NCBI RefSeq assembly: GCF_027587175.1
Contig: NZ_JAPCID010000014.1
Location: 1-64,000 of the forward strand
Length of the DNA: 64,000 bases
Origin: Solirubrobacter deserti
Lineage (GTDB): Bacteria > Actinomycetota > Thermoleophilia > Solirubrobacterales > Solirubrobacteraceae
Reading direction: 5' to 3'
The notes below the pieces were generated by a model. It was not told where the DNA came from and made no database searches. It was given only the letters and a program-made list of their open reading frames with translations. Positions 16,538-19,757 of this stretch are shown piece after piece. Numbering within the stretch: position 1 is the stretch's first letter; every line of letters starts with the position of its first letter. The position numbers were made by a program, and so were the translations under genes.

Positions 16538-16698
16538 CAACGGGAGGAAAAGCGGCGTTTACCCCGTATTTGCGGGGTTTTCACGGAATCCCTGCGTTTT
16601 GCGGGAGGCGCGGCTGGGAAGCCCTTGAAGGCCCCGGGTGGCTCCGCTTTGATCGCCCTCGTCCTGTTGCGGAGTCGTAAACGAGGGAGTCCTTCCGG

Positions 16699-16944
16699 GT
16701 GTCAGTAGTTGCAGCGCCACAGCGTGCCAAGCGGTCCAAGAAGGTCACGTGCGAAGACTGCTTCTTCGCCCGCAACGGCCTCTGCGCGCTGAACCTCGAC
16801 GAGGCCTGCCCGACGTACCGGCCCGACCACCCCGACGGGCTGCGGCCGCCGAGCCAGATGCGGTTCGTGTTCCGCCAGGAGCGCCGCCGCCAGGTCGGCT
16901 GGGCGTTCCCGGACGCCCAGGAACAGGCGCGGCTGCACGGCTAG
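16699..16944 (+). CDS. Small four-cysteine protein, probable zinc ribbon
   Basis: An 81-residue protein with four Cys in the spacing of a small metal-binding motif: CEDC, GLC and EACPTYRP (residues ~18-40). A basic C-terminal tail follows (RQERRRQVGWAF). GTG start at 16699 with a GAGGGA ribosome-binding site 10 bases upstream. I do not know its function; DNA- or RNA-binding is plausible. Its TAG stop overlaps a -10-like TAGACT (16942-16947) that would serve the antiporter operon downstream. Confidence 0.65.
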   Translation: MSVVAAPQRAKRSKKVTCEDCFFARNGLCALNLDEACPTYRPDHPDGLRPPSQMRFVFRQERRRQVGWAFPDAQEQARLHG

Positions 16945-16947
16945 ACT
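16942..16947 (+). promoter_or_regulatory. TAnnnT -10-like element for the antiporter operon
   Basis: TAGACT overlaps the stop codon of the preceding gene. With the usual 6-8 base spacing the transcript would begin near 16954-16955, exactly at the structured leader described next. Confidence 0.45.
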
Positions 16948-16954
16948 TCACGGC

Positions 16955-17009
16955 GGTGTGCCGGGAAGCCTGGTCGGCGATTTCGTCGCCGACCCCTGAG
17001 GTTTTCCCG
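16955..17009 (+). promoter_or_regulatory. Structured 5' leader of the Na+/H+ antiporter operon, candidate riboswitch (nhaA-I-like)
   Basis: The leader folds into nested helices. GGTCGGCGA (16972-16980) pairs with TCGCCGACC (16986-16994), a perfect 9-bp stem. CCT (16969-16971) can pair with AGG (16999-17001). CGGGAA (16962-16967) pairs with TTCCCG (17004-17009), whose last base is the G of the GTG start codon. So the outer helix buries the start. Position and gene context (ArsB/NhaD permease, CBS, NhaA) match the cation-sensing nhaA-type riboswitches. The family assignment is from memory and untested. Confidence 0.55.
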
Positions 17010-18253
17010 TGGCCTTCGCCATCGCCGTCTTCGTCCTCGCCCTCGCGCTCATCGCGTCCGAGCGCGTCGACCGCACCAAGATCGCCCTGCTGGGCGCGAC
17101 GCTCGTCGTCCTCGCCGGCACGCTCGACCAGGAGCAGGCGATCGAGGCGGTCGACTTCAACACGATCGGTCTGCTCGTCGGGATGATGATCATGGTCCGG
17201 GTCACCGAGACCACGGGCGTCTACACGTGGCTGGCGATCCGCGCCGGCCAGCTCTCGAAGGGCCGGCCGCTGGCCGTCGTGCTTGCGCTGGCGATCACCA
17301 CGGCCGTCCTGTCGGCGTTCCTGGACAACGTCACGACGATCCTGCTCGTCGTCCCGATCACGTTTCTACTCGCCGATGCGCTCGACGTAGATCCCATCCC
17401 GCTGATCGTGATCGAGATCGTGGCGTCGAACATCGGCGGCACCGCGACGTTGATCGGCGACCCGCCCAACATCCTCATCGCGGGCCACACCGGGCTCTCG
17501 TTCGGTGCCTTCATCGCCAACCTCGCGCCGATCGTGATCGTCACCCTCGCCGTGATCATCCCTGGGCTGTACTTGGCCTTTCGCTCCCGGCTGCAGATCG
17601 CGCCCGAAGCGCGGAAGCGTGTCATGGCGCTCGACGCCGCCAAGTCGATCGAGGACGCCGGCGAGGCCAAGCGCACGGTCCCGATCCTTGTGCTGACGAT
17701 CCTCGTCTTCTTCATCCACAAGCCGCTGCATCTCGAGCCGGCCACCGTCGCGCTCGCCGGCGCCGCGGTCACCCTGCTCATGAGCCGGCAGTCGCTCGCG
17801 GGCACGGTGTCGTCGATCGAATGGCTGACGTTGTTCTTCCTGATCGGCCTGTTCGTGATGGTCGGTGCGCTGGAGGAGACGGGCGCGCTCGAGGAGGTGG
17901 CGAACGGGATCGCGAACGTCACGGACGGCAACCGCACGGCCGAGCTGCTCGGGATCCTGTGGGTGTCCGCGGTCGGCTCGGGCCTGGTGGACAACATCCC
18001 GTTCACGGCGGCGATGATCCCCGTGGTCGACTCGCTCGCGGAGGACGACGCGTACTGGTGGGCGCTCGCGCTCGGCGCGTGCTTCGGCGGCAACGCGACG
18101 ATCGTCGCCGCGGCCTGCAACGTCGCCGCCTCCGGCATGGCGGCGCGGGCGGGCAACCCGATCGGCTTCGTCTTCTTCCTGCGCTGCGGGCTCCCGGTGA
18201 CCGTGGTGTCATTGATCCTGGCCACCGGCTACGTGATGCTGAGGTACGCATGA
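17009..18253 (+). CDS. ArsB/NhaD-family ion permease (probable Na+/H+ antiporter)
   Basis: A 414-residue polytopic membrane protein of the ion-transporter (ArsB/NhaD/SLC13) superfamily with about 10-12 helices. It shows the two inverted half-repeats with the unwound-helix motifs FLDNVTTILLVVPIT and LVDNIPFTAAMIPVV. NIGGTATLIGDPPNILIAG and CFGGNATIVAAACNVAA follow them. The genes downstream, a CBS-domain protein and NhaA, are coupled by overlaps, so Na+/H+ exchange is the best guess. The GTG start lies inside the outer helix of the structured leader. Confidence 0.85.
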   Translation: MAFAIAVFVLALALIASERVDRTKIALLGATLVVLAGTLDQEQAIEAVDFNTIGLLVGMMIMVRVTETTGVYTWLAIRAGQLSKGRPLAVVLALAITTAVLSAFLDNVTTILLVVPITFLLADALDVDPIPLIVIEIVASNIGGTATLIGDPPNILIAGHTGLSFGAFIANLAPIVIVTLAVIIPGLYLAFRSRLQIAPEARKRVMALDAAKSIEDAGEAKRTVPILVLTILVFFIHKPLHLEPATVALAGAAVTLLMSRQSLAGTVSSIEWLTLFFLIGLFVMVGALEETGALEEVANGIANVTDGNRTAELLGILWVSAVGSGLVDNIPFTAAMIPVVDSLAEDDAYWWALALGACFGGNATIVAAACNVAASGMAARAGNPIGFVFFLRCGLPVTVVSLILATGYVMLRYA

Positions 18254-18678
18254 CCCCTCCTGTGCTGCACGTCGACGACACCGTCGAGACCGCGGTGCGC
18301 ACGCTCGTCGAGAGCGAGCTGTCCGCGCTGCCCGTCCTCGACGAGCGTGAGCGCTTCGCGGGGGTGTTCGGCGAGCGCGAGTTCATGGAGGCGCTGTTCC
18401 CGGGTTACCTCGGCCAGCTCAAGAGCGCCGCATTCCTACGCCACTCGATCGACGACGCGCTCGAGAAGCGCGACACGTGCCGGACCGAGCGCGTGCGCGA
18501 TCACATGAACACCGAGCACGTCGAAGTCGGCCCCGACCACTCCGACCTGCAGGTGGCCGAGATCTTCCTTCACCACCGCGTGCTGATCGTCCCGGTGGTC
18601 GACGACGGCCGCGTGGTCGGACTGATCGCGCGGCGCGAGTTCTTCCGTGAGCTCGCGCAGAAGTTCCTGCGCTCGTGA
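18250..18678 (+). CDS. CBS-domain pair protein
   Basis: A 142-residue protein made of two CBS motifs: TVETAVRTLVESELSALPVLDE and DLQVAEIFLHHRVLIVPVVDDGRVVGLIARREFF. Such pairs bind adenosine nucleotides and regulate partner proteins. It is wedged between two antiporter genes with ATGA/GTGA overlaps on both sides. That suggests it senses cellular energy or nucleotides and modulates one or both transporters (inference). Confidence 0.85.
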   Translation: MTPPVLHVDDTVETAVRTLVESELSALPVLDERERFAGVFGEREFMEALFPGYLGQLKSAAFLRHSIDDALEKRDTCRTERVRDHMNTEHVEVGPDHSDLQVAEIFLHHRVLIVPVVDDGRVVGLIARREFFRELAQKFLRS

Positions 18679-19757
18679 CCGACCGCATACGCGAGTTCCT
18701 CCACGACGAGGCCGCGGGCGGGCTCGCGATCCTCGCCGCCACGATCGCCGCGCTGTTGTGGGCCAACCTCGGCCCGGACTACGACGGCTTCTGGCACACG
18801 GAGCTCGGGCCGCTGGACCTGCACCACTGGGTCAACGACGGGTTGATGGCGCTGTTCTTCCTCATCGTCGGGCTCGAGATCAAGCGCGAGGTCGTCGACG
18901 GGCGCCTCCAGGACGCGCGCACGGCCGCGCTGCCGGCGCTGGCCGCGGTCGGCGGGGTGGTCGCCCCGATCGTGATCTTCGTCGCGCTGGTCGCGGGCGG
19001 GGAGGGTGCGCAGGGCTGGGCGATCGCGTGCGCGACCGACATCGCGTTCGCCGTCGGGCTGATCGCCCTGCTCGGCGACCGCGTGAGCGACGGGACGCGC
19101 GTGTTCTTGCTCGCGGTCGCGATCGTCGACGACATCATCGCCATCGCGATCATCGCCGTCTTCTACGCCGAGGGCGTCTCGCTCACATGGCTGCTGGCCG
19201 CGGCGGCGCTCGTGGTCGTCATCAAGCTCGTGCCCAGGCTGTGGCTCCCGCTCGGGGTCCTGCTCTGGATCGCTGTCCATGAATCCGGCGTGCACGCGAC
19301 GATCGCCGGCGTCGCGGTCGGGCTGCTGCTGCCGCTGGCGATCGGGGAGCGCGTCGAGCACCGGCTGCATCCGTGGAGCGCGTTCGTGGTGGTGCCGCTG
19401 TTCGCGCTCGCGAACGCGGGCATCGAGTTCGGCGGCGGCGCACTCGGCGACGCGCTGTCGAGCACGCTGGTGTGGGCGATCGTCGCGGGGCTGGTGGCCG
19501 GCAAGCTGCTCGGCGTGAGCGGCGCCACGCTCGCCGCGCTGCGCGGCGGTGGCACGCTGCCGGCGGGCATGCCGCGGCGCGAGCTCTACGGCGTGGCCGC
19601 GGCGGCGGGCATCGGGTTCACGGTCTCGCTGTTCATCGCCGATCTGGCGTTCGACGATCCCGCGCTCGTCGAGCGGGCCAAGATCGGGATCTTCGCCGGG
19701 TCGCTGCTCAGCGGTCTGCTGGGCTGGGCGGTACTGTCCCGGGCCAGGAGGGTCTGA
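18675..19757 (+). CDS. nhaA: Na+/H+ antiporter NhaA
   Basis: Electrogenic Na+(Li+)/H+ exchange for pH and sodium homeostasis at the inner membrane. The 360-residue protein opens with FLHDEAAGGLAILAATIAAL, then GLMALFFLIVGLEIKRE. The unwound helix ATDIAFAVGLIALLG and the ion-site aspartate pair in VDDIIAIAII correspond to Asp163/164 of E. coli. GIGFTVSLFIADLAF is the conserved late helix. It is third in the operon led by the structured RNA element. Confidence 0.97.
   Translation: MTDRIREFLHDEAAGGLAILAATIAALLWANLGPDYDGFWHTELGPLDLHHWVNDGLMALFFLIVGLEIKREVVDGRLQDARTAALPALAAVGGVVAPIVIFVALVAGGEGAQGWAIACATDIAFAVGLIALLGDRVSDGTRVFLLAVAIVDDIIAIAIIAVFYAEGVSLTWLLAAAALVVVIKLVPRLWLPLGVLLWIAVHESGVHATIAGVAVGLLLPLAIGERVEHRLHPWSAFVVVPLFALANAGIEFGGGALGDALSSTLVWAIVAGLVAGKLLGVSGATLAALRGGGTLPAGMPRRELYGVAAAAGIGFTVSLFIADLAFDDPALVERAKIGIFAGSLLSGLLGWAVLSRARRV

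Follow-up and report, generated by a model that had tools for sequence, protein, structure and literature searches.

A conserved 25-nucleotide RNA hairpin in the leaders of actinobacterial cation-transport genes, a candidate alkali-cation riboswitch

The Na+-II riboswitches are variants of the Li+-I riboswitch (the nhaA-I RNA, RF03057), and, to our knowledge, Na+ sensing at the level of gene expression in Actinomycetota, such as Streptomyces, Mycobacterium, Rhodococcus, and others, is largely open. Previous studies place the validated alkali-ion riboswitches in Firmicutes, Proteobacteria, Acidobacteria, and Verrucomicrobia (PMC9337991, PMC9646797). The Na+-I riboswitch is located in the leaders of a wide set of Na+-related transporter genes and is described by a two-helix, 55-position model, with members reported in the same four groups (PMC9337991). 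The Li+-II riboswitch was reported only in some Gammaproteobacteria (PMC9646797).

We analyzed a 64,000-nucleotide stretch of Solirubrobacter deserti DNA (the window), in which a structured leader precedes an operon of cation-transport genes (Table 1). An earlier sequence-only reading had named ArsB/NhaD, CBS, and NhaA genes in this operon, and the Pfam matches agree. It had also proposed the leader as an nhaA-I-like riboswitch candidate; a match to nhaA-I, nhaA-II, or DUF1646/Na+-I is not supported, with no Rfam match to these obtained even at E ≤ 10. When the window was scanned with all 4227 families of Rfam 15, none reached its gathering score. RF03057 (gathering score 37 bits) was without a match in the leader up to E 10, in the whole genome, for which a control genome was positive, and in the loci of 15 further members. 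The sodium model RF03071 likewise had no match in the leader, the whole genome (control genome positive), or the 15 further loci, and nhaA-II (Li+-II) had none in the window, in the leader up to E 10, or in those loci. Membership in any Rfam 15 family is rejected by these scans of the window, the leader, and the other members. The best sub-threshold match to the window, SAM-Chlorobi RNA (RF01724; 17.7 bits, E 0.5), was dismissed as chance, with half of the gathering score (35), several broken pairs, and absence from the other members.

Table 1. Features of the leader and the downstream operon, in positions of the window
Feature	Position	Strand	Basis or remark
Small Cys-containing ORF, 81 aa, upstream	16698..16944	+	No Pfam match
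-10 hexamer TAGACT	16942..16947	+	7 nt before GG; predicted transcript start ~16954-16955
Conserved 25-nt RNA core, GGUG-U-GCCG-GGAAGCCUGGU-CGGC-G	16955..16979	+	Model R1, 43.1 bits, E 7e-8; invariant positions
Conserved helix, 5' strand GCCG	16960..16963	+	Compensated double changes; pair counts
Conserved helix, 3' strand CGGC	16975..16978	+	Compensated double changes; pair counts
Alternative (anti-core) 9-bp stem, 5' arm GGTCGGCGA, includes conserved GGUCGGC	16972..16980	+	Sequence, RNAfold, spacer complementarity
Alternative 9-bp stem, 3' arm TCGCCGACC (RNA: UCGCCGACC), includes CGACC	16986..16994	+	CGACC enriched in spacers
Probable ribosome-binding site GAGG	16998..17001	+	3 nt 3' of the alternative stem; sequence
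UUCCCG, partner of core CGGGAA (16962-16967), includes the G of the GTG start	17004..17009	+	Alternative fold
NhaD/ArsB-like transporter (CitMHS/NhaD-ArsB-type)	17009..18253	+	PF03600
CBS-domain protein	18250..18678	+	PF00571
NhaA Na+/H+ antiporter	18675..19757	+	PF06965, E 6e-119

Among homologues of the NhaD-like protein, 7 of ~30 leaders, the window's own included, share the block GGNGN-GCCGGGAAGNCTGGTCGGC, and the others are without it. The consensus core is GGUGY-GCCG-GGAAGNCUGGU-CGGC-R, 25 nt in length, and a 28-position covariance model of it, R1, was used to search Actinomycetota genomes drawn evenly across the phylum. R1 matches 101 of 396 genomes, spread over 70 of 237 genera, and a single genome can have as many as nine copies; in the window's own class, it matches 65 of 249 genomes. 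The 150 Pseudomonadota and 149 Bacillota genomes searched gave no match. Scores of 40-46 bits are typical of the members, with a clear gap from the noise at ~16-25. A sequence pattern blind to structure, with up to two mismatches, draws the same picture of the distribution. A further pattern scan, of GTDB contigs, listed upwards of 100 loci, and among these matches, the full core is confined to Actinomycetota, those of other phyla being without the GG or the CGGC flank. Viral contigs contain no exact match to the element. A CCCCUG 3' of the core was discarded as a motif part, as it came from the search pattern and is not general in the unbiased model set.

The closest relatives of the NhaD-like protein are in genomes G001 and G004; the former has the leader, and the latter (locus L003) has no leader at all, the start of the NhaD-like gene nearly touching the stop of the upstream ORF, as in a natural deletion. 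At L003 and L004, the upstream gene ends in the same way as in the window. Nine copies occur in the 9.5 Mb genome G225, and some of them form tandems or lie only a few kb apart in clusters (L195, L209, L240-L243). At L244/L245 (G142:C124:55469-55821), two divergent elements ~300 bp apart each face one gene.

Of 223 elements, 149 have a TANNNT hexamer that ends 5-8 nt (in practice 6-8) before the GG, where shuffles give 4.6 ± 2.2, and this spacing indicates that the mRNA begins with the element. The transcript most likely starts at the GG or one base earlier, which in the window would place +1 at 16954 or 16955, in keeping with the start near 16955 that had been predicted from the TAGACT, itself present as read. 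In the window, the TAG stop of the 81-residue ORF overlaps the -10 hexamer.

Evidence for an RNA helix comes from the structure-blind pattern, with up to two mismatches. Among the matches listed, ten have one mismatch and 21 have two, and nine of these 21 double changes are exact Watson-Crick compensations of one GCCG/CGGC pair: GTCG/CGAC four times (three families), TCCG/CGGA three times (one genus), and GCTG/CAGC and GGCG/CGCC once each. Five families contribute the listed compensations, which involve all but one of the four helix pairs. Only 12 of 1710 possible double changes are compensatory, giving 0.15 expected by chance against the nine listed. A single mismatch that breaks the stem was seen once among the matches listed (G195), at a locus with no reference family within 2.5 kb. 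In addition, the covariation score of the helix is 0.195 against 0.119 ± 0.021, as high in none of 500 shuffles, and is also above every slid control. Thus the GCCG/CGGC element very likely forms a hairpin in the RNA, judged from these compensated changes and the covariation score. The sequence-only reading had named compensatory changes across related genomes as a check on its leader; they occur in this hairpin and not in the 9-bp and 6-bp helices that it had drawn.

The base before GCCG and the base after CGGC form a flanking pair that is seldom Watson-Crick. Across 226 elements, U.G occurs 101 times, C.A 70, A.A 19, and A.G 13, with only three C-G and nine U-A (chi-square p 5e-31, which is indicative only, as the sequences are related). 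As U.G and C.A share an isosteric wobble geometry, selection at this position seems to favor a non-Watson-Crick pair; both states are found inside one Streptomyces-type genome, G225. These patterns bear on whether the inverted repeat at +1 to +25 is instead a DNA operator bound by a transcription factor. The fixed position beside the -10 hexamer would suit an operator, and GCCG-N11-CGGC is also a palindrome in DNA, but changes in a single half-site should then outnumber symmetrical double changes, and among the matches listed they stand at one against nine. Furthermore, T/G and C/A at the flanking position do not extend the DNA palindrome, yet make an isosteric wobble in RNA, and the asymmetric loop is nearly invariant. 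The mutation pattern disfavors the operator, which we regard as very unlikely.

In the loop GGAAGNCUGGU, free variation is limited to a single position, and the 5' GGNG, which adjoins the hairpin, is invariant. Rarer loop changes are CUGGU to CGGGU in five members, a missing U in two members, and a few single-base exceptions. The CGGGU loop is carried by L208, L210, L213, L215, and L218 (core at 501); the classified genes behind it encode MrpA (L208, L210), an ABC ATPase (L213), and a Na+/Ca2+ exchanger (L215), none of them NhaA. By analogy with Na+-II versus Li+-I, the change from CUGGU to CGGGU is a possible specificity variant. A hairpin at the extreme 5' end could also serve constitutively to protect the mRNA from decay and nothing else, as its location would allow; however, the loop and the GGNG are far more constrained than stability needs, and the element is concentrated on genes of the ion-transport type, which leaves a purely protective hairpin hardly probable.

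We tallied the strongest downstream family within 2.5 kb of 138 non-redundant, model-found elements. The families are NhaA (56), MrpA (11), CPA1 exchanger (10), NhaD/ArsB-like (10), and Na+/Ca2+ exchanger (7), followed by ABC (7), APC-type (6), DUF2254 (5), P-type cation ATPase (2), membrane pyrophosphatase (1), and others. Twenty of the 138 elements are without a classified downstream gene, several owing to short DNA, and overall ~15-30% precede a gene with no obvious Na+ role (ABC, APC, DUF2254, STAS, SpoIIE) or none that was classified. Records annotated by others give the element 5' of nhaA on the Glutamicibacter plasmid pQL1 and 5' of an ArsB/NhaD gene on a Mycobacterium branderi plasmid; in a Rhodococcus record, it heads a group of hydrolase, potassium channel, and cation:proton antiporter genes just after nhaA. 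That unrelated families of ion transporters follow the same element argues for a shared ion signal, and this is our main argument.

The signal itself could differ from Na+ or Li+, being pH, K+, Mg2+/Ca2+, or a metabolite such as c-di-AMP. Some of the families move K+, Ca2+, or H+ (CPA1 annotated as K+/H+, the Na+/Ca2+ exchanger, the P-type ATPase), and the C.A flanking pair could be protonated. What the families have in common is nevertheless Na+ or H+ exchange, and a universal pH sensor is an unlikely role for the flanking pair, as its commoner U.G state carries nothing titratable near neutral pH. We consider a riboswitch for such another signal improbable.

Other downstream genes deserve mention in their own right. 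At L037, L089, L240, L242, and L284, in several actinomycetes and including plasmids, the element precedes genes for STAS-domain proteins (anti-sigma antagonist type) and SpoIIE phosphatases, a hint that stress-sigma partner switching receives this signal as well. DUF2254 membrane proteins lie repeatedly 3' of the element (L254, L260, L269), and this uncharacterized family may have an ion-related role. At L148:3057-4958, NhaA is fused to a C-terminal DsbA/thioredoxin-like domain.

The leader of the window (16955-17011) folds with RNAfold at -31.2 kcal/mol, against -18.4 ± 2.8 in shuffles (z -4.55, 0/200). The 9-bp stem and the 6-bp helix of the sequence-only reading are both perfect, the latter ending on the G of the GTG, and RNAfold recovers both. 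This alternative fold, the 9-bp stem plus the CGGGAA/UUCCCG pairing, is ~18 kcal/mol more stable than folds that keep the core hairpin, with which the 9-bp stem competes, and the nearest-neighbor energy model does not pick the conserved hairpin as the best fold. As a conserved aptamer, the two helices were rejected: the GGUCGGC strand alone is invariant and its partner varies. The CGGGAA/UUCCCG pairing is so far a feature of this one genome. The claim of a structured leader that probably controls translation of the antiporter operon is supported, with the drawn stems no longer the conserved unit; they look like an alternative (OFF) conformation.

The same competition is recognizable across members. 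With words of the ribosome-binding site set aside, no 5-mer in the spacer from core to start codon is more enriched than CGACC, which occurs in 27 of 78 leaders against 4.5 expected. It is complementary to the GGUCG of the core and mostly ends 10-23 nt short of the start codon, either at the ribosome-binding site or immediately 5' of it. Among the core segments, the 3' strand CUGGUCGGC matches its own spacers by complementarity better than shuffled ones (mean z -1.09 ± 0.18), with little or no such excess for the others, and it pairs downstream in 56 of 78 minimum-energy folds against 39.8 ± 3.8. A single model of the expression platform fits the leaders unequally, as the start codon of some follows the core after no more than 7-13 nt.

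In the mechanism that we propose, the core hairpin would form first as the RNA leaves the polymerase. With the ion bound, the core would hold and the ribosome-binding region would stay open (ON); without it, the CGACC-type segment would capture the core 3' strand GGUCGGC just upstream of the ribosome-binding site (OFF), which in the window would close the 9-bp stem and tie up the GTG start. As the core is transcribed first, a ligand could act only by holding it during transcription. The arrangement supports, without proving, a kinetically controlled ON switch.

The hairpin could alternatively be bound in trans, by an RNA or by an RNA-binding protein conserved in actinobacteria, with the translation of cation-stress genes repressed or activated as a result. 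A short hairpin with a nearly invariant loop and a very strict sequence would fit such a site, and a mixed gene set with stress-signaling genes (STAS, SpoIIE) would suit a regulon. Against this, the element stands before unrelated ion transporters on chromosomes and plasmids and in distant classes, no co-localized candidate regulator was noticed, and self-switching leaders typically show such complementarity of the core to the ribosome-binding region. We judge a protein or RNA bound in trans to be unlikely.

The element is a conserved, structured, probably cis-regulatory RNA absent from Rfam 15, of which we are nearly certain. It has the general features of a riboswitch: a conserved, structured 5' leader with covariation, functionally coherent, non-homologous genes downstream, and a plausible competing expression platform, the last not universal. 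The unusually small size that a 25-nt aptamer would have is a point against this reading. Taken together, we propose a translational riboswitch for an alkali cation, working as described above, with a probability of roughly 0.6; that a ligand binds, which ligand it is, and the ON direction are what we infer. Na+ would be more likely than Li+ as the ligand, and Na+ specifically is held with less confidence than the alkali-cation reading. Somewhat short of even odds, the element could be a new Na+ (or Li+) riboswitch class found throughout Actinomycetota and one of the smallest natural aptamers (~25 nt), formed from the first transcribed nucleotides. In the literature covered, with subscription papers and preprints lying outside it, strings of the core sequence were not found in such a role and no actinobacterial antiporter-leader motif was described.

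Few known ion-sensing RNAs would be as small as this one if 25 nt can select Na+. The element is short enough for quick synthesis and structural work, and its natural loop variants and the U.G/C.A pair are built-in specificity experiments.

For the comparison with nhaA-I, one of the closest known classes, genuine members were taken from Pseudomonadota, L319-L322 among them. Like the new element, nhaA-I lies 5' of nhaA and sometimes of nhaD, and at several of its loci (L320, L323, L325), GGGUG follows a -10-like hexamer by ~6-7 nt, a distance similar to that of the core here. However, nhaA-I is ~55 nt long, with a P1 hairpin, a CAGGU linker, and a P2 hairpin with a GGUCGGGCCGCC loop, whereas the new core consists of a single hairpin and lacks both CAGGU and P2; only the 5' GGUGY and UGGUCGG are common to both, and neither the nhaA-I model nor R1 recognizes the members of the other. 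From these shared strings, the new core may reuse the Li+-I ion pocket in a rearranged fold. Such 7-mer sharing has a chance level of ~2%, post hoc, so kinship with nhaA-I or convergence on one pocket is a lead only. Li+-II (nhaA-II) shares the nhaA leader setting with the new element, and Na+-I shares the leader location and the wide set of Na+-related genes; Na+-I is ligand-activated, whereas we infer activation for the new element. The element most likely works like Li+-I, Li+-II, and Na+-I, though it is a member of none of them.
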